Shown: positions 3,979-41,750 of the stretch, piece after piece
Layout of the letters: every line of letters starts with the position of its first letter
How positions within the stretch are numbered: position 1 is the first letter of the stretch
Notes under the pieces: model-generated
What the model saw: only the letters and a program-made list of their open reading frames with translations
Told to the model about the DNA's origin: nothing
Databases searched by the model: none
Made by a program: the position numbers and the translations under genes
Source of the DNA: Endotrypanum monterogeii
Lineage: Eukaryota; Euglenozoa; Kinetoplastea; Trypanosomatida; Trypanosomatidae
Length of the DNA: 64,000 bases
Direction of reading: 5' to 3'
NCBI GenBank assembly: GCA_000333855.2
Contig: CM007315.1
Coordinates: forward strand, 1 to 64,000

Positions 3979-6291
3979 TCACTGCTGCTTGATCTTCCTC
4001 AGCTCTGTCGCTGCAGCGACCATGTTGTGCAGTGCTGCGCGACACTCGTCCCATGTACGCGTTTTCAGGCCGCAGTCGGGGTTCACCCAGAGCTGACGAA
4101 CCGGTAGGTGCTGCGTAGCCTTGAGCAACAAGTCCACAATTGACTGAGTGGTGGGAATGTTGGGGCTGTGGATGTCGTACACACCCGGACCGACAGCGTT
4201 GGGATAAGTAAAGTCGGTAAAGGATATGAGCGGCTCCATGTCGGAACGAGAGGCCTCAATGGAGATCACATCGGCATCCATGCCCGCGATGGTCCGAATG
4301 ACGTCGTTGACCTCTGCGTAGCACATGTGGGTGTGGATCTGTGTCTGCGGGGTGACGCCAGACGTGCTCACGCGAAAGGAACGCGAAGCCCAGTCTAGGT
4401 ACTCGTTCCACTTGCTCCGCTGCAATGGCAGTCCCTCCCGCAGCCCTGGCTCGTCCACCTGGATTATCTTAATTCCAGCGCGCTCGAGATCACACACTTC
4501 GTCGCGGATGGCGAGCGCCAGCTGCTCCGTCACGCTCTGCCGGGAAAGATCCTCGCGCACGAACGACCAGCACAGAATCGTGACCGGGCCAGTAAGCATA
4601 CCCTTCACAGGCCGCTGGGTCAGGGATTGTGCGTAAGTGGCCCACGACACCGTCATCGGGTGTGGGCGGCTCACATCGCCGAAGATGATCGGCGGCTTTA
4701 CACAGCGTGACCCGTAGCTTTGCACCCAGCCATTCTGGGTGAAGGCAAAGCCGTCAAGCAGCTCACCAAAGTACTCCACCATGTCGTTGCGCTCTGCCTC
4801 GCCGTGGACGAGAACATCAAGGCCTATATCCTCCTGTTGCTGGATGGCGTACGAGATGTGTGTTTTTAGCTGTGATTCGTACACTAATTTCTCAGTGCGA
4901 CCCTTTTTGAACGCCAGCCGCTGTGCACGAACCTCGGCTGTTTGCGGGAAGGAGCCGATCGTAGTTGTTGGCCAGAGAGGGAGGTTCAGCTTCTCCTGCT
5001 GCAGACGCCACCGCTCAGGAAAAGGTTCAGCGCGACAAGCGTCGTCGTCGGTCAGACCTGCTACACGGTCTCGCACTTCCTTGCGCACAACGCGCTCGGT
5101 GTGTTGCCGGGCGCGAAGCGGCGCGCTGTACTCGGCTACGGCTGCGTCGTCACCGGTGACAGCGGCGTCCGCCAGCAGCTTCAGCTCACCGCACTTCTGT
5201 AGCGCAAATGCAAGCCACCCCCTTACTTCCGTATCGAGCTCTGTCTCGCACTCCAGGTTGATGGGGGAATGCAGCAAGGAGCAGGATGTGCCGATCCATA
5301 TAAGACGCGTCGGTGACTGCTGGCGCAGAGTAGCAAGAAGATGATGGGCATCCAGGAGGTCAGTGCGCCACACATTTCTGCCATTCACCACGCCGGCAGA
5401 AAGGACCCACTCCGCCGGAAGGGCACGCTCAACCTCGAGTACTGACTGTGTTTGGAGGCTCAGGTCAATATGGAGGCCGTTCACCGGCAAGGAAGCGATC
5501 AGCGGCAAGTGATGCGATACGCTCTCGAAGTAAGTTGTGAGTAGCAGTTTGATATCGTTACCGATAGCCAAACGAAGAGAGCGATATGTATCCCGGAAAG
5601 CGGTCGTCCACTCGGACTCGATTTCAAGCACCAGCGCAGGCTCATCGATCTGCACCCACTCCACACCCGAGGCCGCGAGCCGGTTGAGAATCTCCGCGTA
5701 CACAGATACCAGCTTCGGGAGCAAAGATGCGCGGTCGAAGGGCACCTCGCCTTTCACCTTGCCGAGGTAGACATACGACACAGGGCCAAGAAGCACCGGC
5801 TTCAGGCGCTTAGCGTCATAAATCTGCTTCGCCTCCTCGACCTCGTCGAACAACTGCGGCCACGAGATGCTGAACGTAGCGGACTCACTCGTGAACTCTG
5901 GCACGATGTAGTGGTAATTAGTGTTGAACCACTTTGTCATTTCAGATGCGGCCACCGAGGCCCCCGTCGGGGCGCGACCACGAGCCACCCGAAAGAGCGT
6001 ATCTAGATCGAAGGCAGCGTCTTGAGTCGCGCGGTGACGCAGTGGTACATTACCCAGCATCAGACTGGTTGTCAGCACATGGTCGTACCACGCAAAGTCG
6101 CCCACGGGAAGAAGCATCACGCCCCTCTCACTTTGCTGCTGCCAATGCCGCTTGCGAAGGTCTTTACCGACCTGACAAAGTGCATCCTCTTTCAGTTCAC
6201 CTCGCCAATAAGACTCGAGCGCTTTCTTCAGCTCTCGTTGCTCTCCCATGCGTGGAAAGCCCAGCGTATGCGTCGTTACCGAGAAAGGCAT
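3979..6291 (-). CDS. METE: Cobalamin-independent methionine synthase (MetE)
   Basis: 5-methyltetrahydropteroyltriglutamate-homocysteine S-methyltransferase: moves the methyl group of methyl-tetrahydrofolate to homocysteine to make methionine, in the cytosol. The 770 residues match the family length (E. coli MetE about 753). The Zn/homocysteine ligands are all present: His655 and Cys657 (HMCY), Glu679 (SIEASRSD) and Cys740 (NPDCG). Their spacing is exactly that of E. coli His641/Cys643/Glu665/Cys726, each shifted by 14. The frame stays open a few codons upstream without an ATG, so the start is the ATG ending at 6291 ([16 protein letters not shown]). A splice acceptor at 6377 gives a short 5' UTR. 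It is the telomere-most gene. Trypanosomatid MetE is generally regarded as bacterial in origin, which makes this a likely old lateral transfer. Confidence 0.96.
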
Positions 6292-8067
6292 TTTTCTGAT
6301 CAAACGGGGAAGAGAAAAATGGCTGCCGTGGAAGATTGTGATGAGGCTCTGTAGGTCGGGTGAAGGGTGGACTTATCTGTTATGGGGAAGTAGGAGGCAT
6401 GAAAGACAGACGAAAAAAAAAGACGGCGAAAAAAGTTGATTTCTCATAGTGAATCTCGTCCATTTATAAAGTATGCACGTTGTCTAGCTAGCAGAATTTG
6501 TGGAGTTGCTCTTAAAGGACGCGGAAAACAGAAGGCTCTCTTCTGCACCTAGCGCAGACAGCTGTCAAGGTAAACATGAGCAGCGTTGAATACATGCCCT
6601 GTTGCGAAGCCGGAGAGACTAAGCTGCTTCTCTCGTGTGATTCAGCGTTCATTTCTTTGCCCATAACTAGGGTATTTGGAGTGAGACACAAACACGCATC
6701 GTGTGACCCAGACGCACAACACAAAACATCCACATTCCTTCAAAACGGGACGCTCCGATGCACCTCTCAAGTAAGAAACATACGTAGATTCGGGGCTCAC
6801 CGTCCAGCGTGTTCACATCTTTTTCACCCCATTCCACCCGCATGCGCCGTCACTCACAAAGAAAGAAAATAATATAGCCGCCAAAAGGCTTCGTGAACGG
6901 TCCCGTTGAAACGCGTTTTCGTTCTTTTACTCGTTAGTGTGGGTCACTGACTGCGCATGCGTCTATGATGTGTCCAGAAAAGTTCCTCTATGTGTCTGTG
7001 GAGGAGTGAGGGGTTTCGAAGGGTCATGTACAGTCGACGCGATCCACTTTTTTTTTTTTTGCTAGGTATGTTAAAACTCAATTTAAAAATAATAAGATAC
7101 TGTGGAACAACACCTGAAAAAAAGAAAAACGTTTTTGGAGAAGGAGGAAACACACACACGCATAGCCGCATACGAGAAGAAAATTCGAACTATTTTTCGT
7201 TTTAATTCAGAAGAAAAATTTGTTTAAAAAAGACGTCCGGTTAACCCACAACGATCTCCAAAGCTACCATTCATTAGTGCGAGAGGCAGGCGTAATGCGC
7301 CGTGACTGACATAAAAAAACGGGGGTCGAAGATCTGAGCCCAAGAGCACCGAAAAAAAAAGGAGAACGGGGGAGGAAGGGGGGGGGGGAGCCACCTGAGC
7401 TCTGAATTGTTCAATTTCACGGCACATTGTGCTTATCGATCAGTCTCCTAGATTGAGCCACGCATCTCCACTTTTAGAGAAACGCTCATTATGAAGAAGC
7501 ACCGAGGCGTTATGTTTAGCAAGCTAAGGGAAAAAATGACAACCGGTATTTCAATAACTCGAAATCGAAGCCAACGACAAAACCAACAACAACTTCCAAA
7601 GCATCCCACGTACACTACGGGCAACAGAGTCAGCAGCAGCTAAAACGAATGAAAAGAAGGCAAACGTGAGGGGGTGGAAGACTTTCCGGTAAGGGTGCTT
7701 AAGATGATTCTCATAAAGAAAATCAAGAACCTGGTCCACTTGACAAATTAACGAAAAATGTCGAGATCCCCGGCGTGCCTTAACATACTAAGCACAGCGA
7801 CCGATCAAAAGAAAAGAAGCAACAGGCACTTCGGGAAGGGGTCTCAAAACAGAATATATAGGGGCCCTAGAGATGACAGCCATAGCATGATGCTAAGATT
7901 TTTGCACCACAACGGGTGGGTTACTTAGCGATCACACACTCAAAAAAAAAAAAATTGAAGGCGCCTATAAGTCAGGGTAACAAATAAAATAATGATACAG
8001 AATAATATTAAATGCGAACGCGTGAAGGTATCGCTTGCGATATCTGGTAGAGGAGACGAGAGTGCGT
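6292..8067. other. Intergenic: AQP1 3' UTR and MetE 5' region
   Basis: No coding frame of interest. Going leftward from the AQP1 stop it should hold the AQP1 3' UTR and poly(A) sites, then the MetE polypyrimidine tract. It contains an A run (7941-7953), a T12 run near 7049, and A-run and G-run tracts at 7354-7388. The nearly 1.8 kb length is notable because AQP1 mRNA stability in Leishmania is known to be set by its 3' UTR. Confidence 0.6.
6377..6378 (-). promoter_or_regulatory. Predicted trans-splice acceptor for MetE
   Basis: On the minus strand a pyrimidine-rich tract (about 6436-6395) is followed by its first AG at 6378-6377, 85 nt upstream of the chosen ATG. This fits the trypanosomatid rule of polypyrimidine tract then first AG. 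Confidence 0.5.
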
Positions 8068-9018
8068 CTAGGGCCTGGCCGGAATTATAAAAAAAACGTA
8101 CAAGAACATGCCAAGGGTAGCGCCAAGGATCGGCACAAATGTGGGGATCAAGAAGTAATAGTTGTGCAGTGTAAAGGGTTCTTTGCCCCAGAGCATCGCT
8201 GTCACTATACGTGGGCCAAGATCTCGGGCTGGGTTGATGGCATACCCCGAGTTGACGCCTGTCGTGATACCAAGCGTAAACACCAGCAAACCGACAGCGA
8301 TCGGCTTGTAGTTGACGGCAGGAGTCATACGCTCATCGCACAGACCGAGAATACCCATCATGAGAGCCATTGTGTTAAACAGCTCACTCCACACAGCATA
8401 GCCGTTCGGAACCCGAGGGTACGTGCAGAAGATACCTCCATACTCGGTCGTCATAGAACTCCCCGGTGAGAGGCTCTGCTCAGCCATGTCGAAATGAGGT
8501 TTGAAAAGCCCGTACACGTTGGCGGCACCTGCCATGGCGCCGAGAAGTTGGGCAAGGATGAATCCAGGTGCCTTCTTCCATGGAAAGGCGCCGAAGAGGC
8601 AGTTGGCTAGCGTCACAGCAGGGTTCAAGTGACCACCGGAGACCCCCATGCTGATGAAAAGGGCGATGCAAAGCCCGAAAGCCCAGCCAAAGGTGATGGC
8701 GAGATAACTGGTATTCGTCTGAAATTCAGGCGTTATGCCCGCGGTCAATTTTGTCGTTGCACAGACACCGTTGCCGAACGAAATAAGAAAAAATGTTCCG
8801 AAGAACTCTGCAAAATACTCACGCAGCAGCCAGCGCCACTGGTAGAGGGGCCATTCTTCCTGGGATGTCCAATTGCGCTTTGCATTTTGGAGTATGCGCC
8901 TTCCCTCCCCCTCCACTTCCTGTTGCATTTCCATTTGGATGGGTTCTTCTTTACCCGCGTAGTACTGAACTTCGTTCTCGTCAGAGATGTCAGCAAGATG
9001 TGTGTGAGCGAGCGACAT
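8068..9018 (-). CDS. AQP1: Aquaglyceroporin AQP1
   Basis: Major intrinsic protein channel for water, glycerol and other small neutral solutes. In Leishmania it also admits trivalent arsenic and antimony, so its level sets antimonial sensitivity. The 316 residues have a hydrophilic N-terminus of about 65 residues, then six membrane segments and two re-entrant half-helices. Both NPA motifs are intact: GGHLNPAV (132-134) and GYAINPARD (262-264). Arg265 follows the second NPA at the selectivity filter, and the Asp two residues after it (Asp266) is characteristic of glycerol-conducting members. The start is the first ATG, with a splice acceptor 84 nt upstream. The gene is complete with no visible lesion. 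It lies about 8 kb from the telomere. Confidence 0.96.
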   Translation of the reverse strand: MSLAHTHLADISDENEVQYYAGKEEPIQMEMQQEVEGEGRRILQNAKRNWTSQEEWPLYQWRWLLREYFAEFFGTFFLISFGNGVCATTKLTAGITPEFQTNTSYLAITFGWAFGLCIALFISMGVSGGHLNPAVTLANCLFGAFPWKKAPGFILAQLLGAMAGAANVYGLFKPHFDMAEQSLSPGSSMTTEYGGIFCTYPRVPNGYAVWSELFNTMALMMGILGLCDERMTPAVNYKPIAVGLLVFTLGITTGVNSGYAINPARDLGPRIVTAMLWGKEPFTLHNYYFLIPTFVPILGATLGMFLYVFFIIPARP

Positions 9019-9707: not shown

Positions 9708-12700
9708 TCAGGAGGCGGTATGCTGGTTGTGTGTGACGGGTGAGCGCACGTGGGCAACAAGCACAACATCACTGGGAGTCTGAGAAGCCACCCAGCGAGC
9801 AAAACGCGCGCGCAGCTGGGCATGCCCCGGCAGAGCCGCTGCAACAGCAACTACATAGGCAAGCAGTGGCTGTCGGGGCCCATTCTCCACCTGCTGTTCC
9901 TCTATCTGCGGCACTGCGACGTTGTTGTTTTGTCGAGGTGCAGGCTCATTATCGACGTCGTCACGGGGAACAGCGGGCCTGTCAGCGTCATCTGTAGGCA
10001 CCAAGACAGGCGGGCCCAGACGGATATGCTGAAAGTCCATGATGGTCCGCCTTCGGTCGAAGGCTGCCCTCCTCTCGGCGCCGTCAACAAGAACCTCCAG
10101 TGGGCTCCTAAGCGACAGGCAAAAACACAGCGCAAGCAAAAAGAGCACCTGACACGTAGAGTAAAGGAGGCTCCCGTTGTAGGTGAAGTAGACTACGGCG
10201 ACAATAAACCGTACCAGGCCACTGTGAATTACCAGAGGAAGTACAACTGCGTGGATAGCTTTCATGGACAGGGTCCCTTCGAATAGCTGCGGCGCGTACT
10301 CGAGAAAGCGATGAAAAAGGGAGGTTCGCAACACCACTCCCTCGAAGAAAACCCACAAGGCGAGAGCCAGCGCACCAGTTGTCCACCGGAGCAACCACTG
10401 TAGCCACAAAGGTAGAGCTACGTAGTCTGCGGAAACGAGATCCACGTAGTTCAGATGCCACTTTGAGCACACCAATAAAGGAGCACAGAGTGCAATAAGT
10501 GCCCCGCAGCCCAAGCGAGTAACAGTAGCCATGTGCTCCACCGTTTTTATGGTGAGGTAGTGCAGTGCGTGACGCGGGCACGCGACGACGCTGTAGCGGC
10601 GGGAGTTGTCGAGTGATGACAAGAGTAGCAGCAGCACTGTATCGTTCTGCTCAATGGCTCCCTGAATCAGTACTGATACCATTTTGGTTGGCTTCACGTG
10701 GACAAGTCGGCGGCAGACGCACGTATCGACGCCAGTAAATTCAACTGAGGCGCCATAGAAAAACAGCGTGATAGCGCGCATCTTCCAGTTCTGCACGCTG
10801 CGGCGAATCTGAGGAAATACGTCGTTGAGGACGCCGTCGCGGCGAGGAAGGAGCATCAAAGCGAGGGCAAATCCGAGAACAGAAAACCACGAACACCAAG
10901 AGGCATACTCCACCGCTGCACCGATCATTAAGTGGACGCAGAGAAGCGTGACCACATAAGCAGAGGTTTCCACTATCTGGCTTCCCTGCGGCTGCAGTTC
11001 GACAGTTGCGCCATCCGTGTCCAAAAAGCACCTCCACAGCCACGACTGCGCGTGGGTATACAGCCGCTTTAAGATGTCGAACCAACAATACAAGAATTGG
11101 AAGTGCGCATCCAACTTCGAAGACGAATACAGAGATAGGTACGTAAGGGACTTTGGAAAGGCCTCTGGGAAAAGGTGGTGCAAAGAGAGAAACGCACCAA
11201 AGCCAACAAACACCGTGTACATCGCCACATAAACAGGCACCTCAAGTAGTGTGCGCCAAAAAGCACGTCCATGCAGACAAAGAAATGCAAAAAAGAAGTC
11301 GTTCTCAGCAAGGTCACTGGCAAGGGTCAGGTATGGTGCAAACACCACAAAGGAGCCGGTCAGCAACCACATCAGGGTAGTGCGCATGGTCGCGATGAGG
11401 GTAATCCAGGTGGAGAAGGTTGATATTCGGATTAAAACCCCGGCACTGTACCACACGAACTCCACTAAAGAAGCCGCAATGTTGTGGGCGGATGCAGACG
11501 AGACTGCTGCTCCACATGTCACGGTGTCAAACAACGGCGGGTACTCACCTCGCAGGACATCAGGGAGGACGAAAAAAAGGGCTCGTGCAACGTTGAGTGG
11601 CTGAACAACGGGTGCAAAACCGCTTGTCGCGCCATCGCAGTAGAGCGGAAGAAGGCGCTCGGCACGAAGTACTAGCCAAGCATCGCGTCTCTCCATGAGT
11701 GGGGCAACGTCGCCCTCTACAAAAAAGGGAATCAGACAGACGTACACAACGACGGGAATCACAACGCCCCACGTTACGCAGAGGGTAAGATTCAAAGCGA
11801 TGCTACGGGTGAAAAGACTGCATAGGAAAAGGGTGCGCGACGACCACGCACCAACATTTCGCCGATACCGCGAAGCGACACACAAGATAAGGGGCAGCTC
11901 CATCAGCCCTATCATGAAGGCCATGATCCAGTGCACGTACGGTGGCACTACAGCAACATTAACTGTCATTCCTGCTTGAATGAGCGGCGAGAGACCTGGA
12001 TGCGAAAGCAGCATCTTCGACACTATGTAAAGTATGTGGCAGAGCCACTTGAGAGTATACAAGGAGAGGTACCCCAGTACAACAGCACTGACACCCATCG
12101 TGTGCACAAGAAGTATCCTTGCCGAGTACCACAGCGGCCCGAAACTCCAAGAGCTTGAGTGATGAGCGGTTCCGTGGCTAGCGCGTACTTTCTCTTTGAG
12201 AAGCTGCAGCGTCGTGTCTTTGCTCATCTGCATCTCAGTAACAGAGAGGTAGCGGCTACGTGGTACACTTTCAGACGCTGTACTACACCGTGTGAAGGCC
12301 CTATTCAGTGCGGAGCTAGTCGCGCTGTCTAGGGCTGGTGTCGCTGATGGCTGCAGTGGCGCTTCCGGTGGGAGGCCAGCGATGGAGTCCTCGTGCAGAA
12401 ACGCCCATACGCTAAATTGTTCGAATAACCAGAGCAGCGCGAGCGGTACGATGGTGATGATAGCACCAAAAATGTATAGGGACTCGACAAAAAAAGGAAA
12501 ACCTCCGAGAGCTGTGTGTTGGAGTATCATGTGGGCCGAGACACTGCGCCACATCACTGTACTGGCAATCGAAACTACTGCACAGCACATCAGCACCTGC
12601 AGCGGCATAAACAGCGCCTTAAAGAAACGCTGTAATGGTCGTACCAGAAGCAGCTGTACGGCCAGCCGCAGACCTTCTAGAGAAGCGAGGGGTGGTGCGT

Positions 12701-12890
12701 CCTCCACAGCGACTTGAAAGGTATAGACGACGCCGCACACTTCACAGGAGAGCTCCCCACGCGAGGCGATCCACTCTGCCAGACAGTAGGGATGCGCATA
12801 CGCCATGGTCCCCTCACACTGGCAGGGACGCAGTATTGGATCGCCGTCTGACTGGCATATGCGGCACACAGCAGATGTCTCCGGTTCCAT
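9708..12890 (-). CDS. RING-CH multipass membrane protein (Doa10/MARCH6-like E3)
   Basis: Likely membrane-embedded E3 ubiquitin ligase for protein quality control at the ER or nuclear envelope. The extreme N-terminus carries a complete C4HC3 RING-CH (RINGv) finger: Cys9, Cys12, Cys23, Cys25, His33, Cys36, Cys49 and Cys52. About a dozen or more hydrophobic segments follow through residue 950, then a Pro/Asn/Gln/Asp-rich hydrophilic tail. The N-terminal RING-CH, high membrane-segment count and 1060-residue length are those of Doa10/TEB4 (MARCH6) rather than two-segment MARCH proteins. I infer the family from architecture and cannot align the TEB4-Doa10 core. The ATG at 12890 lies directly before the finger, leaving little doubt about the start. 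Confidence 0.85.
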   Translation of the reverse strand: MEPETSAVCRICQSDGDPILRPCQCEGTMAYAHPYCLAEWIASRGELSCEVCGVVYTFQVAVEDAPPLASLEGLRLAVQLLLVRPLQRFFKALFMPLQVLMCCAVVSIASTVMWRSVSAHMILQHTALGGFPFFVESLYIFGAIITIVPLALLWLFEQFSVWAFLHEDSIAGLPPEAPLQPSATPALDSATSSALNRAFTRCSTASESVPRSRYLSVTEMQMSKDTTLQLLKEKVRASHGTAHHSSSWSFGPLWYSARILLVHTMGVSAVVLGYLSLYTLKWLCHILYIVSKMLLSHPGLSPLIQAGMTVNVAVVPPYVHWIMAFMIGLMELPLILCVASRYRRNVGAWSSRTLFLCSLFTRSIALNLTLCVTWGVVIPVVVYVCLIPFFVEGDVAPLMERRDAWLVLRAERLLPLYCDGATSGFAPVVQPLNVARALFFVLPDVLRGEYPPLFDTVTCGAAVSSASAHNIAASLVEFVWYSAGVLIRISTFSTWITLIATMRTTLMWLLTGSFVVFAPYLTLASDLAENDFFFAFLCLHGRAFWRTLLEVPVYVAMYTVFVGFGAFLSLHHLFPEAFPKSLTYLSLYSSSKLDAHFQFLYCWFDILKRLYTHAQSWLWRCFLDTDGATVELQPQGSQIVETSAYVVTLLCVHLMIGAAVEYASWCSWFSVLGFALALMLLPRRDGVLNDVFPQIRRSVQNWKMRAITLFFYGASVEFTGVDTCVCRRLVHVKPTKMVSVLIQGAIEQNDTVLLLLLSSLDNSRRYSVVACPRHALHYLTIKTVEHMATVTRLGCGALIALCAPLLVCSKWHLNYVDLVSADYVALPLWLQWLLRWTTGALALALWVFFEGVVLRTSLFHRFLEYAPQLFEGTLSMKAIHAVVLPLVIHSGLVRFIVAVVYFTYNGSLLYSTCQVLFLLALCFCLSLRSPLEVLVDGAERRAAFDRRRTIMDFQHIRLGPPVLVPTDDADRPAVPRDDVDNEPAPRQNNNVAVPQIEEQQVENGPRQPLLAYVVAVAAALPGHAQLRARFARWVASQTPSDVVLVAHVRSPVTHNQHTAS

Positions 12891-14390: not shown

Positions 14391-15080
14391 CTAAATGCCC
14401 ATTTCCTGTACAACGCCACAGTTGCTGATCATCACAGTCTTGCTGGGTTTACCGTGTGGAGCTCCGTAGGCTTCAAGCTTCTTGACTTGCTCATAGCCCT
14501 GAAGTACTTGTCCGAACACAACGTGTTTCCCGTCCAACCACGGGCACGCAACGGTGCAAATGAAGAACTGTGAGCCGTTGGTGTTGCGGCCAGCGTTGGC
14601 CATGGAAAGAATACCCGGGCCCTTGTGCTTGCCTGCTTTGCCCTGGAAGGACTCATCTTTGAAGCGTGTGCCATAGATTGAGCAGCCCCCGGTGCCGTTG
14701 CCCTTGGTGATATCGCCGCCCTGTATCATAAAGTCTGGGATGATGCGGTGAAACACGCAGCCCTTGTAGGTGAGTAGATTTCCATCCGGCGACTTGCTGC
14801 TCGTTCCCCTGCACAGCTCGCGGAAACTCCTCGCCGTGACGGGGACAGTGTCGTCGAACAGTTCAAACTCGATTCGTCCAATGGACTTCTCGGTTGCTAG
14901 ACCAAAAAAAGAGGAGCCGCTCTGTTCAGCAACTTCGAAAAACACGCGGCTATTGCGCGGGTTTGTGACGTACGGTGGGAGGTACGGCGCGTCTGCCGAG
15001 GCCGCAGTAGTGCTAGGGGCAGCGACATACGCGTGGAGGGCACCGCCTGCAAGGAGAGCGCACGAGAATCGAAGGGCCAT
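14391..15080 (-). CDS. Cyclophilin-type peptidyl-prolyl isomerase with signal sequence
   Basis: Catalyses cis-trans isomerisation of peptidyl-proline bonds. The protein is 229 residues: a hydrophobic N-terminal signal or anchor ([20 protein letters not shown]), a linker, then a full cyclophilin domain from about residue 47. The catalytic and cyclosporin-binding stretches are recognisable: [14 protein letters not shown] (active-site Arg, Phe, Gln), NGSQFFI, and [10 protein letters not shown] with the Trp linked to cyclosporin sensitivity. The frame is open upstream to 15350 through low-complexity, UTR-like sequence, so I start at the ATG ending at 15080. That start has a good acceptor 75 nt upstream and places the signal peptide first. 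Secretory pathway or organellar location is inferred from the leader. Leishmania has many cyclophilins, so I give no number. Confidence 0.9.
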
Positions 15081-15615
15081 TTTGGAGCGACGAGAAGAGA
15101 AACAAAACAAAAAAAAGGGGGGGAGAGGTTTTGTGCGTGTTGCGGGGCGACTTGTCTGCGTATGCACAAAAAGAGAGAGGAAAAAAGGGAATTTGCGTTG
15201 GTAGAACGAAATCAGTGTAAGACGCCCCATAAAAGAAGTTGAGGCGATAGTGTTATTGGAGAGCGGGAGTGACGGGGTAGGTTGGGTGGCGGTGGTGGTT
15301 GGGAGGAGGAGGGAGTTGGACGGAGATAACAGGTCTCGAATGGTCAGCAAAAGGAAGATAGGTTAACACACTGATCATGTATATACATCATTCTATATAT
15401 CTATATATATATATATATATTCATGTGTGTTTTGTATGGAGAGCTACTTCATTCGATGGCGCCCCGCTGCTTCTCCATCTCGCATGGATCCTGAGAAACA
15501 GTGCGTGTGTTTGTATCACTATTGCTCTTTTCGATAGTGTTGTTTCCTCGATAAGTACAAAAGGGTGGAGAGAATCGGATCGCGGGCGAGAAAGCCCATG
15601 AGCTCTTCCAGGGAA
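15081..15615. other. Intergenic with AT microsatellite
   Basis: Holds the cyclophilin 5' UTR and two pyrimidine tracts, an AT microsatellite (about 15390-15420), and the 3' region of the next gene. No separate gene seen. Confidence 0.6.
15156..15157 (-). promoter_or_regulatory. Predicted trans-splice acceptor for cyclophilin
   Basis: Minus-strand polypyrimidine tract (about 15192-15168), first AG at 15157-15156, 5' UTR about 75 nt. A second pyrimidine tract lies closer to the ATG (15120-15092), so an alternative site is possible. Confidence 0.4.
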
Positions 15616-16383: not shown

Positions 16384-19242
16384 TTACCCGAGCGTCTTTT
16401 GAGCGCGGAGGTGTGCCGCGCTGGAGAGGTGTACCACCCACTCGGCCACCGACACGTGCTCTCGGCAGATGCGGCATAGAACAGTGCGGTCTTTCGCGGC
16501 AAAGTTCTCCGCTGGCTGGCCACGCTGTCCTCTCCCGAGTCTCCCCTGTCGCGGCTGCTGGGTTCGGCGCGGCGGCACAATGCCCTTACGTAGATTGTCG
16601 AGCGTTTCCATTCGCAAGTGCTTCTGAGGGTACCCCGGGAAGTGAAGCTCCAGGTATTTTTGAAACTGCGGAACCTTTGCGGCGTTTTCGTACAGCTGCT
16701 TGAACTGGAGGTACGACTGTGTGATCATCGTAACATCGTTCTGTACAATTGACCCCGAGGCGGTGCGCCGCTTGCGCCACCGCAACTTGTACTGTGCACA
16801 AAGGCGGTCGAGGTCGGCCTGTTTATCTGGCGGTAGACCAACCCGGAGTCGACTGTCCCCCTGGTTAACCCTCATGAGGCACCCCGCCAGCCGCTCAAAC
16901 GGCGTTGCATCGAGGCCAATGTAGCCGCCCTTGTGTATATCGAGCGGCGGTATCGTTTTGTGCCTGCTGAGGTGACGGGCAAGCGTCTGAAGACACTCCT
17001 CCCATGGGTACGGCCCGTGAATTCCGTATTGCTTCCATTTGGGTAGACTTTCTAGGTCCCGCAGTTGATAAACCTGGAGGTAGGTGACCTCACCGCGCTC
17101 ATGCATTCTGTATCCACGGCGCACGTATTGGTAGAACATGCTCATGGAGACTGGGGTCTCCCCCACCACCCAGGCATCATTTGTTTTGGGGTATCGATTG
17201 CATTCATGGACTATACGCTTCATCTCACCAAAGATACTCTTCCACGGGAGTCGTGCGGCGCGATGCAGCCGATCAGCGTCGCGAGTAGTATAGCGCACAC
17301 CACGCCTAATGGCTGGCAGAACAAACTGATGGAGTTCCTCTGACGTCACCTTGAGCGAGCGGACGCCAACAACACCAATGTCGTAAGACTTTTTCCGGGG
17401 GTCAATCATGTACTCGAACAGAGTCGGGTCCTCGTCCATGAGCGCATCCGTAAAAGGAACTAGAGTGGAGAAGCTCTGCAGATTGGTGGGGTGATCCGCG
17501 GTGTAGCGCTCGTCGAAGACAGCTGGCAGAAACACAAATGACGGCGGCTTTCCTTCAAATTTGTTCAGTGGGCGACAAATGCTCTGAATGATGTCGCGCG
17601 AGCTGTACCGCGGCGCAGCAAAAAATACGGCGTTCAGGTCAGCAATCTCCACTCCTTCCTGGAAGAGGCGCACATTGAGCAGCAGGCACCGCTTCGCTGT
17701 CGTGAAGGACTCCAGAGTTTTGGCCACCGCCGTGCTGCCCATGCGGGAATGGGCGATGAGCACAGAAAACGCAGGAACGTCGCTGGGAGGCGCCTCCTTT
17801 AGCAAATCCTCATGAAGTTTCATGGCGTGGGCGATGTCACGGCAAAAGACAAGCATCTTATCCACCAGGCGCATCGCCTCAAACAGGTATGGATTCATGC
17901 ACGACAAACTGCCACCCAGCACTACGCGAACAGAGAAGGGGTTCACATAACCGTTGTTGATACCTTCGCGGAGGTAGTAGCGGTAGGCGATGCCGCCGAA
18001 GTAGCTAGTATCACTCATTTTTATGGGTGTGTCGTAGGTAGGGGTTGCGGTAAGAAACAGCCGCTGGCCGTGCAAGGGGAGCTTCAGCATGGTATTGAAT
18101 GCGGTATTGTCCGTGCTGCCGCACACGCGATGGCACTCGTCGAAAACAGTAAGCTGGAAAATATTCAAATCTTTCAGGAGTGGCGATGAGTGGTAGGTTG
18201 AGATCACCACTACTTTGGGATTGCCCAAGATGGTCTCACGCACCTCATTGGGCTTGGTAGTCATGGATTGAGAGCGATTGTCGCCCAGCACCACCGGTAG
18301 AGGGTCAGATCCGATGATAAGCAACGGCGTATCTTCAAGACCGTAGGCAACCAGCTTGCGCGCTGTCTGCCGGAGAAGAGACAGCCCCGGGACGAGGTAA
18401 AGCACACGTGCGCTGCCTTTTTCTTCGAGTATGTGCTGAATAATGCGGTACGCGACCGGTGTTTTGCCGCATCTGCACGCAATCTGACAAACAGCTTTCT
18501 TGTTTCCTGCCAACTCCGCCATGAGGCGGGTCACAGCCTCTTGTTGGTACGGCCGCAGGTCGTGAAGCGAATAGTCGTTGTTGTCGATCCAAGTGGTGAG
18601 GAAGCTAAGGTCTGAGTTACTGAGGCCCTCCTCGTCGTCATAGTCATCTGTTCTTATAGCAGCATCACCGTCGCAGCTGTCGAGGGTCGAGCGATACGCG
18701 GACATGTTGGTCTTGGCGTCATTGAGAACTTCGCGGTATGGCGCAATCGTGGCGGTGGCCTGAGCAGGAAGCAAAGAAGTTATTTCTTGCTCCTCGGCTC
18801 CATCTGCAGGGTTCACGTTCGTGGGGGGAGACGGGAATCGCTGCTGACAAGGGATGCCTGGTACAGTTTTGGTCAGTAAGCTGTGGTAGTTTGGAAGCGT
18901 GCGCTGGACAACGGGGAGGTCGAGCTTACGTGCAAGTACCGCCGCTGTCTTGGTTACTTCATCTTCGCTGAGCCGAATTAACTCGCGGTGCTCGACACGT
19001 TTATCACTGAGGCAAAACAGCACCGACTGCTCCAGCAGCAGAGCCTCTTTGCTGGACCGGCACTCGAAGACAGAGGCATAGTACCACTCGGGTGTGAAGC
19101 ATGTCGTGAAAGAGGCCATGTCAAGACGCGTTTCCAGGCAGCTGCTGTAGCCGACCTTTACGAAACCAGCTGCCTTGAGCCATGGGTGTTGTGCTACATA
19201 GAAGCCAATCGTCTTCAGAAAGCACGATGTACAGCTGAGCAT
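16384..19242 (-). CDS. SF2 DEAD/H helicase with GIY-YIG-like N-terminus and C-terminal zinc finger
   Basis: 952-residue multidomain nucleic-acid enzyme. Residues 10-90 look like a T5orf172/MUG113 (GIY-YIG superfamily) domain: GFYV near 13-16, FVKVGYSS at 27-34, a conserved-position Arg39 and a Glu71 in LLLEQSV. A disordered acidic linker (145-215) leads into the helicase core. Core motifs are LRPYQQEAV at 229-237, Walker A CRCGKT at 256-261, DECH at 368-371, LTATP at 397-401, QEGVEIADL at 528-536 and the motif VI region QSICRPLN at 553-560. Residues 600-900 are basic and Trp-rich, possibly helicase-associated modules. A C2H2-type finger closes the protein: Cys923, Cys926, His938, His944. The start ATG at 19242 is needed for the N-terminal domain. 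Substrate (DNA or RNA) and compartment are unknown. The core resembles type III restriction or A18-like helicases. Confidence 0.85.
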   Translation of the reverse strand: MLSCTSCFLKTIGFYVAQHPWLKAAGFVKVGYSSCLETRLDMASFTTCFTPEWYYASVFECRSSKEALLLEQSVLFCLSDKRVEHRELIRLSEDEVTKTAAVLARKLDLPVVQRTLPNYHSLLTKTVPGIPCQQRFPSPPTNVNPADGAEEQEITSLLPAQATATIAPYREVLNDAKTNMSAYRSTLDSCDGDAAIRTDDYDDEEGLSNSDLSFLTTWIDNNDYSLHDLRPYQQEAVTRLMAELAGNKKAVCQIACRCGKTPVAYRIIQHILEEKGSARVLYLVPGLSLLRQTARKLVAYGLEDTPLLIIGSDPLPVVLGDNRSQSMTTKPNEVRETILGNPKVVVISTYHSSPLLKDLNIFQLTVFDECHRVCGSTDNTAFNTMLKLPLHGQRLFLTATPTYDTPIKMSDTSYFGGIAYRYYLREGINNGYVNPFSVRVVLGGSLSCMNPYLFEAMRLVDKMLVFCRDIAHAMKLHEDLLKEAPPSDVPAFSVLIAHSRMGSTAVAKTLESFTTAKRCLLLNVRLFQEGVEIADLNAVFFAAPRYSSRDIIQSICRPLNKFEGKPPSFVFLPAVFDERYTADHPTNLQSFSTLVPFTDALMDEDPTLFEYMIDPRKKSYDIGVVGVRSLKVTSEELHQFVLPAIRRGVRYTTRDADRLHRAARLPWKSIFGEMKRIVHECNRYPKTNDAWVVGETPVSMSMFYQYVRRGYRMHERGEVTYLQVYQLRDLESLPKWKQYGIHGPYPWEECLQTLARHLSRHKTIPPLDIHKGGYIGLDATPFERLAGCLMRVNQGDSRLRVGLPPDKQADLDRLCAQYKLRWRKRRTASGSIVQNDVTMITQSYLQFKQLYENAAKVPQFQKYLELHFPGYPQKHLRMETLDNLRKGIVPPRRTQQPRQGRLGRGQRGQPAENFAAKDRTVLCRICREHVSVAEWVVHLSSAAHLRAQKTLG

Positions 19243-21230: not shown

Positions 21231-21899
21231 TTACTCGACTGCCGCCGACTCCCCGAGCTTGTCCTCAGCGATATTTTCTGAATTATTCTCGGTAGTGGGG
21301 TTTTCAGACCCCTTCAGATTCGTCTCGGTTGCCGTCTTATCCTTGTCGTCCACCTTCTCCTTTGGCGCCGCCTCATCCTTCGCGTCTTCGCCGGTGCCGT
21401 GTACGCGGCACTTTTCACCGAATTGGCACGCGCGACCCTCCACGTCCTCATGCAGGAAGCGACACCCCTCGCCGAACTTGCACGAGCCCTGAAGGTGAAA
21501 GCAGCAGGCAGTCTGACGCTCCCACTCGCGTTGAGTTTCGAGTGTACCGCCGACGAACGGCTTCTTTCGGCGCAAGGGGAATCCACCCCGCCCGCCACGG
21601 AACCCGCCGCGCATGTTGCTGAAACCGCCACGTCCGGTGCTCGGATAGTACCAGTCACCCCGACCGCGACCGCCGCGGTATCCGGGCATCGCCGGCGGGT
21701 ACCCCTGCATAACGTTGTACATGGGGTTACCCATCGGATAGCCTTGCGGGTGCTGATAGTAGTTGACTGGAGACTGATTGTAGCCTTGCTGTGGCATGCC
21801 GCTCATGGGCTGGCTCATGTTGTAGCCCCTATCGTTGTATGCTGCACGGCCGTACTGTGGTCCGTGGCCCGGAGCATCGTATTGAGGACGTTGCATCAT
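21231..21899 (-). CDS. CCCH zinc-finger protein with RGG repeats
   Basis: Probable RNA-binding post-transcriptional regulator, 222 residues. Residues 1-75 are a Gln/Tyr/Met/Pro/Gly/Asn-rich prion-like segment. Residues 75-107 hold Arg-Gly repeats (GRGRG, GGFRGGRGGF), a typical RNA-binding and arginine-methylation tract. A canonical CCCH finger follows, Cys132-x7-Cys140-x5-Cys146-x3-His150, then a second degenerate Cys/His cluster (CQFGEKCRVHG). The C-terminal third is acidic and low in complexity. The frame stays open upstream through an AT microsatellite, which is not coding, so the start is the double ATG ending at 21899. Trypanosomatids regulate mRNA largely through such proteins. I cannot name the ZC3H orthologue. 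Confidence 0.88.
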   Translation of the reverse strand: MMQRPQYDAPGHGPQYGRAAYNDRGYNMSQPMSGMPQQGYNQSPVNYYQHPQGYPMGNPMYNVMQGYPPAMPGYRGGRGRGDWYYPSTGRGGFSNMRGGFRGGRGGFPLRRKKPFVGGTLETQREWERQTACCFHLQGSCKFGEGCRFLHEDVEGRACQFGEKCRVHGTGEDAKDEAAPKEKVDDKDKTATETNLKGSENPTTENNSENIAEDKLGESAAVE

Positions 21900-22485
21900 T
21901 GTGTCCAACGTGTAGTGGCAAGGGTTTGATATATATATATATATATATTCTATTGGGCATAATATGATGGACACGCGTTTGGCGGAGGGGGAGAGGAGGG
22001 AACACAGAGAACGAGCGAGGCGAGGTGAATAGGGCCGTGTGGAGGATTCAAAGATGGGTGAAAAGGAAAGGTGACACTCAAGAACATTCGATGGCGACAT
22101 GTCCGCATTATTCACACCTCACAGTGGGTGGAGTGGGAAGGTGTCTTGCACACATTAGAAGGGATAGACATGAAAGTGCGATGCACAAAGGAGGGGGAGC
22201 AATCCACACGTACGCTCAGAGAAATTTTACATACCGGCTTCATGCGACGGAACACCAAGAGATACAATGGTCACCGAAACACTACATCGTGAGTGATAGC
22301 AAGCATTCCCGAAACGACGACCCCTCACACAGACTCTTACCTACCCTCTTCCTTACTTCCCCCAAAACAAGGCAAAGGACAGGAAAACACACAGCGAGTG
22401 CCAGGTGTGTCTTGTCAACCCTCCTCCGGACGTACAATTCACAATAAATCGAGGACCGACTCGTGGAGTAAGAGAAGTGGCATTC

Positions 22486-24919: not shown

Positions 24920-26014
24920 TCAATCGCGCCATCCAACATATACTTCATCTGTTCGAAAACGCTGTGTGATAGTCGCCTCTGTCATGGTGGTGAAGGAACC
25001 ACTGAGGTACTGAAGCAGACCAGCGTATGCAATCATGCATCCATTGTCGATACAGTATCGCTGGTCCATGTCAAAGCAGCGACCGCCACGCTCTGCGGCC
25101 ATGAGCTGCATCATCTCCTGGAGTCGCATGTTGCAGCCGACACCGCCGACAATGAGTACATCCGATACTTTGATTTGCGACATGGCACGCTCCGTCACCT
25201 CGACGAGCATGGCGAAAATCGTTTCTTGCAGAGAGAAGCAGATATCGTCCGTGTTGAACGTTTTTCCAGGCGGTACCGGTGGGCGTGTCAGCGGTTGGTT
25301 CGCCTTGCGCCGCTTGTCGGAGACCTCGCAAGCGCCCGGCTCACTGAACTGAGGGTGGCACACAAGCTGCTCGACATAGGAAAGAATGCCACTAAAAGAC
25401 ATGTCCATTCCTTTAACCGTGTACGGCAGGCGAATGTAGCTCGTACCCCTCTTGGCCTTCTGTTCGATATTATACCCGGGTGCCGGATCATTAGAAATCC
25501 CGAGGAGGCGGGCCACACGATCGAGGCAATTGCCCACGGCGATGTCGATTGTCTCGCCAAATATGCGATAACGATGGTCAGAGTAGGCGATGACTTGCGT
25601 GTTGCCTCCACTGACGTAGAGCACCACAGGGTTTTCGCTCTTCGTGACGACACGGCCCATTTCAATATGTCCGATGCAGTGGTTGACTCCCACCAGCGGC
25701 CTCTCCCAGAGGAGGGATAGTGTTTTGGCTACGGTGCACCCAACAGAAAGCGGAGCTCCCATGCCTGGACCCTTGGTGTAGGAGATAATGTCGATGTCGG
25801 CAGGTGTCACACCGGCCTCCTGCATAGCGCGCTGTACGACCTGCAGCACGTGCTGGGAGTGGTGAATAGCCGTCTCGCGTGGCAGGAACCCTGTCCCTGG
25901 TGGAGTGATGTACGTTTCACGAACATTGGAGAGCACTGCACCGGTTTGATTCACAACACCCACACCTATTTTGTTTGCGCTTCCCTCGATTCCCAAGGAG
26001 AGCGTACACTTCAT
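24920..26014 (-). CDS. KAE1: KAE1/OSGEP, tRNA t6A biosynthesis (KEOPS) ATPase
   Basis: Catalytic subunit of the KEOPS complex, which transfers threonylcarbamoyl to A37 of ANN-decoding tRNAs, in cytosol and nucleus. The 364 residues match eukaryotic Kae1/OSGEP (about 335-390). The N-terminal ASKHA motif [14 protein letters not shown] is present. The metal-binding histidines His112 and His116 lie in [11 protein letters not shown], the form typical of Kae1 rather than the mitochondrial Qri7. YVSGGNTQ and the late GGVGCN motif also match. The frame is open 66 codons upstream but has no ATG there, so translation starts at the ATG ending at 26014. No organellar presequence is seen, which supports the cytosolic paralogue. 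Confidence 0.95.
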
Positions 26015-26317
26015 CAGTGACAAGTCAGAGTGCTGTTGTCGAACTGAGGGAGAGGCATAACGAACCACCGGAGCAATTAAAGAGGTGTAGCGCGGGTGAA
26101 GAGGAGGTAAAGGTAAATGAGAAGCAAGAAAAATGATGATAGAGGCAAGGAGAGGAGGGGGGGGAGTGCGAGCAACACAAGATAAGACTGTGTACCCGCG
26201 AGTACTTGCCACTAAACGTGGAAAGAATGGAGGGGATTTGGAGTTCCAGGGAAGGAAAGTTGTTGTGCGCGAGCAGGGTAGCGTGTGCTCATTTTCTGCT
26301 CACATGGTTCGGTGCGC

Positions 26318-38192: not shown

Positions 38193-41100
38193 TTAGAGCG
38201 GACCGGTACCGAGGCGCGGGAGAATGGTCATCGACATGAGCTCCTGGAACAGCAGCTTGCAGGCGTACGGCATCAGTACCTGAGAGATGCGCGTATCGTT
38301 CTCGCAGCCCTTGCACTGATAACGGTTCAACTTTGTATCCGCCACACAAATTGTACCGCACATATTGCAGACGTGCACGGTGTAGTAGTCGCTGACACGG
38401 AAGAGGCGCTCACGTAGCCACTGTGAGGCACCGTAGGAAAGCATGCAGTCACGTTCCATCTCGCCAAACCGCAATCCGCCCTCGTGTGCGCGGCCTTCGG
38501 TTGGCTGACGCACCAGAGGCTGCAGCGGCCCACGTGGGCGGGCATGAATCTTGTCACCAGACAAGTGCTTCAGGCGCTGGTAGAACGTGGGGCCGAAGAA
38601 AATCAGATGATCCAGCGGCAGCCCAGTGTGTCCGTTGTAGAGACACTCGTTGCCGTACCGCTGCGATCGAAGGGCATGTAGGGCCTTACCAAAATCATCC
38701 ACGACGACGGAGCAGAAAGGCGTTGCGTACACCTCCCCGCCCCTGTAGCAGGCCACCTTGCCCGCCAGTGTCTCGATGAGATGGGCCACGGTCATGCGAG
38801 AGGGGATAGCGTGGGGGTTGATGACCAGGTCCGGTACGATACCGTCGCGGTTGAAGGGCATGTCCTCCTGTCGGAACTGAATACCATTGGTACCCTTCTG
38901 CCCGTGCCGACTGCAGAACTTGTCGCCGATGTTCGGTATTTTAATGGTTCGGATTTTAACTTTGGTGAAGCGGTCGCCATTGTTCATCGTCAACATCACC
39001 TTGTCGACAACACCCTTCTCCGTAGTGCGAGAGGTGACACTTGCGTCTCGCTTCGTGATTTTAGTGTTGCCTGTGGTGAGCTTCTCGAGGTCTGCTTCAG
39101 GTAGCGGGATCGTCTTGCCGACAACTACATCGCCACCGAGTACGCGCATGCCGGGCTTGATGAGGCCATCCGTATCCAGCTTGGAATAGTCCGCACGCTT
39201 CACACGGCATACCTCGCGGTCAGGATTCTCGAAAGTCTCCAAGGCGTCACGTTTCTGCCGCTCCTCTTTGGCCTTGAAGGAGCGCCAGAAGGCACTGCGG
39301 AAGAAGCCACGCTCCACCGCGGAGCGACTCATGATGATGGAGTCCTCTTGGTTGTACCCACTATAGCATGAAATCGCGACCACCGCGTTGTGGCCAGCGG
39401 GCAGGTCGTTGCTGTGCATGTACGTCATTGCCTTGGTTCGCACAAGCGGCTTTTGCGGGTAGAAGAGAACGTGGGCGGTGGTGTCCATGCGCATATTAAA
39501 GTTTGAGGCGTAAATACCCATAGCCTGCTTGCCCATGGCGGACTGGTAGGTGTTGCGCGGGGACTGGTTGTGGTTGGGATAAGGGATAATGGAGGCGCAA
39601 ATACCGAGAATCATAGACGGGTCCATCTCGCAGTGGGAGTAGTAGAGGTTCTTCTCCACTTCCTTCATTGTCATGGCGATCAAAAGTGAGTCCTCCTCTT
39701 CACAGTCAATCAACTCGACATAGCCCTTCTTCAGTACGGTGTTCCATGAGATCGACTTTCTACCACCCCCCTTCTCTGCGACGAGGAGATCACGCATACC
39801 GGACTTGCGGAGCTTCAGGTGGCAGTTCTCAGCGACAAAGAGAGGCCGCAGGCACCGGCCACCGTCCGAGAACACACGAATTTCGCGATCTCGGATATCG
39901 CGCACGATGCTGACCTCGTTGCTGAGCTCGCCGTTGCGGCGCCGTGTACGCAGGTCGTGCAGGAGCCGCTCCGGGTTGCGGTCTACACCAATCATTGTCC
40001 CGTTCACAAAGACCCGTGCTACGCGCACGTCGGCTGTGTCCTCGAGACCGATCGTGCGAAAGCCGTCGATGCGCGCCTGCACAGCTTGCACCACCTCAGC
40101 GTGGTCCGTGCCGCGGGACATGAGGCACATCAACGCCACGTTCTTGAGCAAGCCGATGGAGCCGCCCTCGGGAGTCTCCACGGGACAGATGTACCCCCAC
40201 TGCGTACAGTGCAAGTTGCGCGGCCGCGTCGCTTTGCTGGAAGCGGCAATGGGGTTCTGGATGCGGCGCAGGTTGCTCAGGGAGGACGAATAGGTGAGGC
40301 GGTTCAGCGTCTGTGCAACCCCGGTTTTAATGTTGCCACTCTTGAGGTCACCGAAGTTTCCCGTGGCGAGACAGCGACGTAGACCGTCTGTGACAAGCTT
40401 GCTGTGGATGATGCGACCAAAGCTGAAGACGCCGCGCGGGTTCGCCGCGTGATCCTGCAATGTCTTGATCATTTCTTTCCGCACCTGCGCGAGAAAGGTC
40501 TGCAGCTGCACTGTGAGTAGCGTGCCTGCCACATCAATACGCTTGTGTCCAAGAAAGTCGCGGTCTGTTTCCTCGTGACGCCCGAGAGCGACGAGTAGAA
40601 GTTTGTGCACCATGTAGCCCATGTACAGACATTTTGTGCGGTTCGCTGAGGGGTCGGTGCCCATGTGCGGCAGCAAGTCTCGCATGAGCAGACTCTCCGC
40701 CTCCCGCTGCAGGTTAGTCATCGCGTCTTGCTTGCCGAGGCGACGACCAATGTAGCCGAGAGCGTCTTCGCGGTTGAAGATCTGCAGCGTGCTCGCGTCA
40801 CTCATGGAGCCCCGCAACAACTCCAGCATCGCAGTATCCTTGAGGTCCGGTACGACGGTCTGCAGGATCTCTTTGTCGGCCACCATGTCCAACGCCCGAA
40901 ACAAGACGAATAGTGGGATGGTCTCGTCCATTTGCGCAACGCGGCAGAGCAAGTTCTCGAAGCCGGTACCCGGTCCTTTGTTTTTGTACTGCATAATAAT
41001 CTGCAACGTACGCGGCTTGTTCAGTGACCCCTCCACGATCGACTTTACCTCACACAGCAAACCTTTCTGGCGGGAAAACGTGTAGACGTGATTAGCGGCC

Positions 41101-41750
41101 TGTCGCTCTTGTGCAATGAGCACCTTCTCTGTACCGTTGATCACGAAATAGCCGCCCTGGTCGTGAGGGCACTCGTTGAGCCGGGGGAGCTCATCCTCGT
41201 CCTTTCCGCTGAGGTTGCAGCGCATGGACTTGAGCATGATGGGAATGCGACCGAGTTCAACATTGCGCAGGAAGGTCTCGTGTGGCGTGTCAGCGTGAGG
41301 GTGGTACAACTCTACGCCAAGCGTCACCTGCGCCTGCGCATCGTACGTCATATCACGCAGTCGGCACTCGTTAGGAAAGAGGGGTGGGAGGGGACCACCT
41401 GCAAAGTATGAATGTGTCTGATGCGATGGGTTGCCAATGACAACATCCTGCAGCACCAACCGGGGCTGGTCACGCTGCTCCTCTATCCTCACACCGGGAT
41501 CGTACTGGTCGTCCTGACGCGGGATGATAGTCATGCTCTCAATCATTTTCGGGATACGCATGAGGAAGTCGTTGTAGGAGTCGAGCTGCTGATGCACGAG
41601 GCCTTTTTCTCGGAAAAAAGACGAGATGACCTCCCATATATCCTCGCTGTCTAGGTCATCGTTGGAGTTCTCGTCGTCGTGCCCATCAAGGATATCGTCA
41701 TCGAGGACCATGTCAGGGTCCTCCAGGTCCAGCAGTTCATCCTGAGCCAT
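38193..41750 (-). CDS. RPB2: RNA polymerase II second-largest subunit RPB2
   Basis: Second-largest catalytic subunit of nuclear RNA polymerase II, which makes the polycistronic pre-mRNAs and spliced-leader RNA. 1185 residues (yeast Rpb2 1224). After an acidic N-terminus, SFFREKGLVHQQLDSYNDF is the Rpb2 signature. Further hallmarks in order: NGTEKVLIAQER, the fork and hybrid-binding segments (CPVETPEGGSIGLLKN), GYNQEDSIIM, DKFCSRHGQKG, and the C-terminal anchor and clamp region (RGPLQPLVRQPTEGR, GGLRFGEMERDC). The C-terminal Zn site has paired CxxC motifs (CNMC and CKGC). The frame stays open 119 codons upstream through pyrimidine-tract sequence, but the first residues matching Rpb2 follow the ATG ending at 41750. 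That leaves a very short 5' UTR if the nearest acceptor is used. Confidence 0.97.
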   Translation of the reverse strand: MAQDELLDLEDPDMVLDDDILDGHDDENSNDDLDSEDIWEVISSFFREKGLVHQQLDSYNDFLMRIPKMIESMTIIPRQDDQYDPGVRIEEQRDQPRLVLQDVVIGNPSHQTHSYFAGGPLPPLFPNECRLRDMTYDAQAQVTLGVELYHPHADTPHETFLRNVELGRIPIMLKSMRCNLSGKDEDELPRLNECPHDQGGYFVINGTEKVLIAQERQAANHVYTFSRQKGLLCEVKSIVEGSLNKPRTLQIIMQYKNKGPGTGFENLLCRVAQMDETIPLFVLFRALDMVADKEILQTVVPDLKDTAMLELLRGSMSDASTLQIFNREDALGYIGRRLGKQDAMTNLQREAESLLMRDLLPHMGTDPSANRTKCLYMGYMVHKLLLVALGRHEETDRDFLGHKRIDVAGTLLTVQLQTFLAQVRKEMIKTLQDHAANPRGVFSFGRIIHSKLVTDGLRRCLATGNFGDLKSGNIKTGVAQTLNRLTYSSSLSNLRRIQNPIAASSKATRPRNLHCTQWGYICPVETPEGGSIGLLKNVALMCLMSRGTDHAEVVQAVQARIDGFRTIGLEDTADVRVARVFVNGTMIGVDRNPERLLHDLRTRRRNGELSNEVSIVRDIRDREIRVFSDGGRCLRPLFVAENCHLKLRKSGMRDLLVAEKGGGRKSISWNTVLKKGYVELIDCEEEDSLLIAMTMKEVEKNLYYSHCEMDPSMILGICASIIPYPNHNQSPRNTYQSAMGKQAMGIYASNFNMRMDTTAHVLFYPQKPLVRTKAMTYMHSNDLPAGHNAVVAISCYSGYNQEDSIIMSRSAVERGFFRSAFWRSFKAKEERQKRDALETFENPDREVCRVKRADYSKLDTDGLIKPGMRVLGGDVVVGKTIPLPEADLEKLTTGNTKITKRDASVTSRTTEKGVVDKVMLTMNNGDRFTKVKIRTIKIPNIGDKFCSRHGQKGTNGIQFRQEDMPFNRDGIVPDLVINPHAIPSRMTVAHLIETLAGKVACYRGGEVYATPFCSVVVDDFGKALHALRSQRYGNECLYNGHTGLPLDHLIFFGPTFYQRLKHLSGDKIHARPRGPLQPLVRQPTEGRAHEGGLRFGEMERDCMLSYGASQWLRERLFRVSDYYTVHVCNMCGTICVADTKLNRYQCKGCENDTRISQVLMPYACKLLFQELMSMTILPRLGTGPL

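Follow-up and report, generated by a model that had tools for sequence, protein, structure and literature searches.

The first 64,000 nucleotides of contig CM007315.1 of the trypanosomatid Endotrypanum monterogeii (the window) encode, on the minus strand at 16384–19242, a 952-residue protein that joins an N-terminal GIY-YIG domain to a superfamily 2 (SF2) motor related to those of Type ISP restriction enzymes, one supported and one tentative helicase-associated (HA)-like repeat, and a C-terminal C2H2 zinc finger. It is a real, well-conserved enzyme, and we consider it somewhat probable that it works in kinetoplastids like a restriction-type nuclease–translocase, an action in the mitochondrion, in surveillance or clearance of kinetoplast DNA, being favoured. 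The first-pass annotation had put the gene forward as an undescribed system; its architecture is in fact on record for African swine fever virus (ASFV) in a passage of PMC8777736, and a passage of PMC3493329 notes it for Kinetoplastida. New here are model support for the GIY-YIG fold, the kinship of the motor to Type ISP enzymes, the HA-like repeat, the finger as a mark of the kinetoplastid side of the family, a change in motif VI and a hint of mitochondrial targeting.

The plus strand over the same interval, in the frame given, contains many stop codons. The minus-strand translation holds the motifs read by the first-pass annotation at the residues it assigned: G13-F-Y15-V, F27-V-K29-V-G31-Y-S-S, R39 and E71 (in LLLEQSV) in the GIY-YIG domain, CGKT (258–261), DECH (368–371), LTATP (397–401) and QSICRPLN (553–560) in the motor, and C923, C926, H938 and H944 in the finger, a combination far beyond chance. 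Curated Pfam cut-offs are exceeded by T5orf172 (6.4e-12, residues 14–100), ResIII (7.9e-16), DEAD (1.9e-11) and Helicase_C (1.1e-7). That a single chain unites a GIY-YIG domain with an SF2 core and a C2H2 finger is thus confirmed.

Homologue searches returned 149 proteins with the window protein and 229 with its ASFV counterpart, the best 120 being listed for each; motif conservation was counted over 121 rows, made up of the window protein with the 120 top-ranking of its 149 matches. What we call the kinetoplastid clade comprises 45 rows (P0001–P0044 and P0086), delimited by similarity rank and tree position: the window protein and 19 further rows, the latter by name, are trypanosomatid, and the remainder join them by similarity and tree position. 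Orthologues occur in all seven trypanosomatid genera named among the matches listed, and the sequence evolves slowly, with identities of 84% in Porcisia hertigi, 75–79% in Leishmania (four named records), 69% in Leptomonas, 65% in Angomonas and 59% in Strigomonas (both shorter records), 55% in Phytomonas and 51–59% in Trypanosoma; the species thus lies near Porcisia. The protein has a single match in its own 30.7-Mb genome, as does the T5orf172 domain (E = 0.001).

The T5orf172 profile (PF10544) scores 46.3 bits against a cut-off of 20. The domain is real, as annotated, and its boundary lies further on than the 90 residues first allotted to it, the N-terminal unit being confidently modelled to about residue 115. 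Both the model and Foldseek return a GIY-YIG fold, the nearest solved structures being the Slx1 and HIGLE endonucleases, with identity of merely 10–14% across the aligned part. The first-pass annotation had asked for a GIY-YIG match above 90 per cent, which Foldseek narrowly missed (best probability 0.89, with weak E-values, the best being 0.23); a GIY-YIG-only profile run against PDB sequences gave a chance match alone. The catalytic set of GIY-YIG enzymes consists of Tyr, Arg and Glu, and these are present in 111 of 112, 112 of 112 and 116 of 117 non-gap rows, respectively. Neither of the findings that the annotation had said would count against it, an unrelated fold or unconserved catalytic residues, was made. 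KVG replaces the classical YIG, and K29 is found in all 113 non-gap rows. Slx1 has a RING finger, and neither Slx1 nor HIGLE is known to carry an SF2 motor.

By sequence and by structure, the motor is nearest to double-stranded DNA (dsDNA) restriction translocases. In the structural ranking, restriction motors come first, followed by RIG-I, RadD and FANCM, with MDA5 also among the matches, and restriction-enzyme models of PADLOC match the motor as well. An ISP-type SF2 motor is present, but the window protein is not a Type ISP enzyme because it lacks both the Mrr nuclease and the methyltransferase: LlaBIII and LlaGI have an N-terminal Mrr nuclease where the window protein has GIY-YIG, and no Pfam methyltransferase model matches the 952 residues at E-values up to 10. 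The match to LlaBIII goes no further than profile residue 636 or so, the Type ISP methyltransferase and target-recognition domains were not found, and the β-hairpin loop of LlaBIII and LlaGI falls in an alignment gap. The protein may nonetheless work like a Type ISP enzyme. Its motif VI (residues 553–560; window 17563–17586) departs from the GRxxR of LlaBIII and LlaGI, reading CRPLN; CRxL(N/S/T) is found in all 121 aligned members and GRxxR in the seven bacterial comparators. K565 is likewise invariant (121/121). The replacement of GRxxR by CRPLN poses a sharp biochemical question by itself.

The region annotated as basic and Trp-rich (about residues 661–830) holds the supported and the tentative HA-like repeat. 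A profile built from the six HA copies of WP_019484797 matched residues 640–740 with a probability of 48 and residues 738–835 with one of 50, whereas 20 column shuffles of residues 580–905 reached at most 1.5. A broader profile, for which up to six plasmid records supplied 30 copies, raised repeat 1 to a probability of 93.9 (hhalign P = 1.6e-7) and lowered repeat 2 from 50 to 18 (P = 1.3e-3); 12 shuffles of each gave at most 4.8 and 2.3, respectively, and no probability above 0.5 was reached by six further segments of the chain. By sequence, the HA-like structure 2kta matches the bacterial HA region (E = 2.4e-4). The Pfam HA model (PF03457) found no match in the C-terminal region at E-values up to 10, and the mutual likeness of the two repeats is no better than that of shuffled columns, so we regard repeat 1 as supported and repeat 2 as tentative. 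Bacterial plasmid helicases such as WP_019484797 share the order of ResIII motor and then HA repeats, but that protein has six HA stretches and, unlike the window protein, no T5orf172 match.

The finger sets the kinetoplastid side apart: 42 of its 45 rows show the C2H2 pattern, as against 3 of the 114 others. It is modelled with strands at 920–922 and 929–931 and a helix at 932–939; no Pfam zinc-finger model matched the window protein above cut-off. The three finger-bearing outsiders (P0056, P0080 and P0077) group with kinetoplastids in motor trees, and P0056 and P0080, but not P0077, did so in the first whole-protein tree. P0077 (1536 residues) has seven CxxC...H...H matches from residue 994 on, beyond its motor region. 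A second, degenerate GIY-YIG-like stretch suspected by eye in P0056 (about 409–464) was rejected, its profile match not being significant (E = 1.9).

Ahead of the GIY-YIG domain lies an extension that is a possible short mitochondrial presequence, judging from its composition; presequences of trypanosomatids can be very short. We measured it where a GFY motif was found near the start, as it was in 39 of the 45 rows of the kinetoplastid clade and 90 of the 114 outside it. Its length is mostly 10–14 residues in the kinetoplastid clade, with a median of 12, against a median of 8 elsewhere, where it is often acidic. Extensions of 7–25 residues are free of Asp and Glu in 33 of 34 kinetoplastid-clade rows versus 17 of 50 rows of the other clade; in five kinetoplastid rows the extension is longer, and three of these five contain Asp or Glu. 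Among 16 hand-picked representatives, 15 are acid-free (counted by eye) with extension identity of just 14%, which means that the composition has been preserved although the sequence itself has drifted. As a background we took 50 other open reading frames (ORFs) of at least 300 residues, a few perhaps spurious, which were drawn from the window and from 20 regions of 10 kb each and read from their first ATG; 22 of the 50 are equally acid-free at the N terminus, and the signal therefore belongs to the family, not to the window gene. Against this rate of 0.44, a hand-made binomial that ignores relatedness gives about 4e-5 for 15 of 16.

Relatives in large DNA viruses, which the first-pass annotation had anticipated, do exist. 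ASFV pA859L is 37% identical to the window protein at 92% coverage (E = 8.1e-160); the homology runs from end to end, save that the finger has no ASFV counterpart. Together with metagenomic relatives and Marseillevirus LCMAC103, it shares the GIY-YIG domain, the motor, the conserved C-terminal region and the CRxL(N/S/T) motif VI, but these proteins have no C2H2 finger, and their extension is generally shorter and often acidic. The metagenomic members, some on contigs of 150–260 kb, may or may not be viral. Members named outside trypanosomatids, among the matches listed, are ASFV, Marseillevirus LCMAC103, an Elysia marginata (sea slug) record and an Elusimicrobiota bin; the last two, P0101 and P0154, may be contaminants or mis-binned. 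Passages of PMC8777736 assign T5orf172, ResIII and Helicase_C domains to A859L, call it an RNA helicase, report stop codons in it in several ASFV isolates, and describe normal growth in macrophages and normal disease in pigs after its deletion, which makes it accessory in ASFV. In BFVD (entries A0A5B8XA67 and A0A5B8XD67) the best viral structure match is an 844-residue ASFV protein labelled 'IkB-like', and a separate 235-residue ASFV T5orf172 protein also appears; given the reported stop codons, the latter could be a fragment of an interrupted A859L.

In 2012 an ASFV helicase was found to cluster with Kinetoplastida homologues that have its domain organization, and transfer from a unicellular eukaryote to the asfarvirus ancestor was proposed (passages of PMC3493329). 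Our 121-row tree separates the kinetoplastid clade and two near neighbours from the remainder. Motor trees rooted with bacterial outgroups point in the opposite direction to that proposal, nesting kinetoplastids within the other clade; given a very long outgroup branch, and since the approximately unbiased test does not reject a tree in which the other clade stays whole (P = 0.311), we favour neither direction of transfer. Peptide-pattern scans of a viral contig collection (with P0110, a family alignment, P0060, P0089 and P0090) confirmed no relative, and those of a genome contig collection (with P0001 and a family alignment) found none, absences that mean little with two to six patterns per scan and eukaryotic viruses possibly scarce in the collection. 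A search with P0056 for wider relatives returned P0056 itself and four weak matches.

The computations show which domains the protein has, how it is predicted to fold, and how it is conserved and distributed; from these we infer nuclease and translocase activity, DNA binding, a substrate and a localization. The GIY-YIG domain would cut dsDNA; the motor, kin to those of Type ISP and Type I restriction enzymes, would use ATP to move on or remodel it; and the HA-like and C2H2 parts would bind DNA. An ATP-driven DNA nuclease–translocase is the best fit because a nuclease, a restriction-type motor, a probable DNA-binding repeat and a finger occur together. As no methyltransferase domain turned up, the enzyme would probably be set off by a DNA structure, a DNA end or an unprotected state, and not by a site that lacks methylation. 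The site of action would be the mitochondrion and the task surveillance or clearance of kinetoplast DNA, which we favour over nuclear repair, and nuclear repair over defence. A fuller version, in which an organelle-targeted nuclease–translocase with altered motif VI polices or clears kinetoplast DNA, belongs to a family that ancient transfer has made common to kinetoplastids, ASFV and a marseille-like large DNA virus, and acquired its finger and presequence on the eukaryotic side, is a good deal less probable as a whole.

Nuclear DNA repair would make the protein a structure-specific, Slx1-like endonuclease with a RadD- or XPB-like motor acting on flaps, forks or recombination intermediates. 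Slx1 is indeed the closest solved GIY-YIG fold, RIG-I, RadD and FANCM follow the restriction motors in the structural ranking, and the basic tail near residues 891–918 is a candidate nuclear signal; the motor sequence is, however, far closer to restriction translocases and the N-terminal extension is presequence-like, leaving this reading unlikely, if worth keeping in view. A role in defence or as an inter-element weapon, in which a restriction-like nuclease retained by kinetoplastids attacks viral or mobile DNA and the viral copies target competitors, seems less likely still. It accords with the restriction enzymes as closest solved motors, the PADLOC matches and the dispensability of the ASFV gene, as expected of an accessory role (PMC8777736, in the passage cited above), but defence genes less typically show such presence in all seven named genera and such slow evolution (copy number being taken from the E. 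monterogeii genome), and no partner or modification gene was seen in the ten neighbouring ORFs scanned. Least probable by far is an RNA helicase, as the published description of A859L and the matches to RIG-I and MDA5 might suggest, given a motor nearest to dsDNA translocases in sequence and structure and an attached nuclease domain with preserved catalytic residues.

If the protein is active, trypanosomatids (Angomonas, Phytomonas, Leishmania and Trypanosoma among those named) would have retained a eukaryotic enzyme with the build of a bacterial restriction motor–nuclease; a nuclease–motor role in policing kinetoplast DNA or the genome would become directly testable, and ASFV A859L would be reread from 'RNA helicase' to DNA nuclease–translocase. 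Searches of the open-access literature found no experiment on a kinetoplastid orthologue. Identifiers guessed from neighbouring genes led to Tb927.4.3890, an RNA helicase linked to a decapping complex that we judge, by description only, to be a different gene (it is described as present universally and as resembling Tb927.9.12070), and, for LmjF.31, to a single unrelated paper; PMC2212663 and PMC8715426 contributed nothing further.

Features of the 952-residue protein and Pfam-matched neighbouring genes in the window
Feature	Residues	Window position	Strand	Remarks
ORF: GIY-YIG, Type ISP-like SF2 motor, HA-like repeat(s), C2H2 finger	952 in all	16384–19242	minus	
N-terminal extension	1–12	19207–19242	minus	possible short mitochondrial presequence
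T5orf172-type GIY-YIG domain	13–118	18889–19206	minus	Y15, K29, G31, R39, E71
Poorly conserved linker	119–222	18577–18888	minus	model mostly low-confidence except helix 159–182
SF2 motor and helical region after it	223–660	17263–18576	minus	CGKT, DECH, TATP, QSICRPLN; closest to LlaBIII/LlaGI
HA-like repeat 1	661–742	17017–17262	minus	hhalign 667–736; modelled helices 667–681, 700–715, 724–731, two strands between
Tentative HA-like repeat 2	743–830	16753–17016	minus	hhalign 747–776; modelled helices 747–761, 781–795, 805–817
Conserved helical segment (831–890), then variable tail	831–918	16489–16752	minus	
C2H2 finger	919–952	16387–16488	minus	C923, C926, H938, H944; modelled strand-strand-helix
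MetE-type methionine synthase		3979–6303	minus	Pfam
Aquaporin-family channel		8068–9018	minus	Pfam
RINGv		9708–12890	minus	Pfam
Cyclophilin		14391–15350	minus	Pfam
CCCH finger		21231–22115	minus	Pfam
TsaD/Kae1		24920–26212	minus	Pfam
RNA polymerase Rpb2		38193–42107	minus	Pfam

The Pfam-matched neighbours among the ten ORFs scanned, which span 3979–42107 of the window on the minus strand, are ordinary genes.
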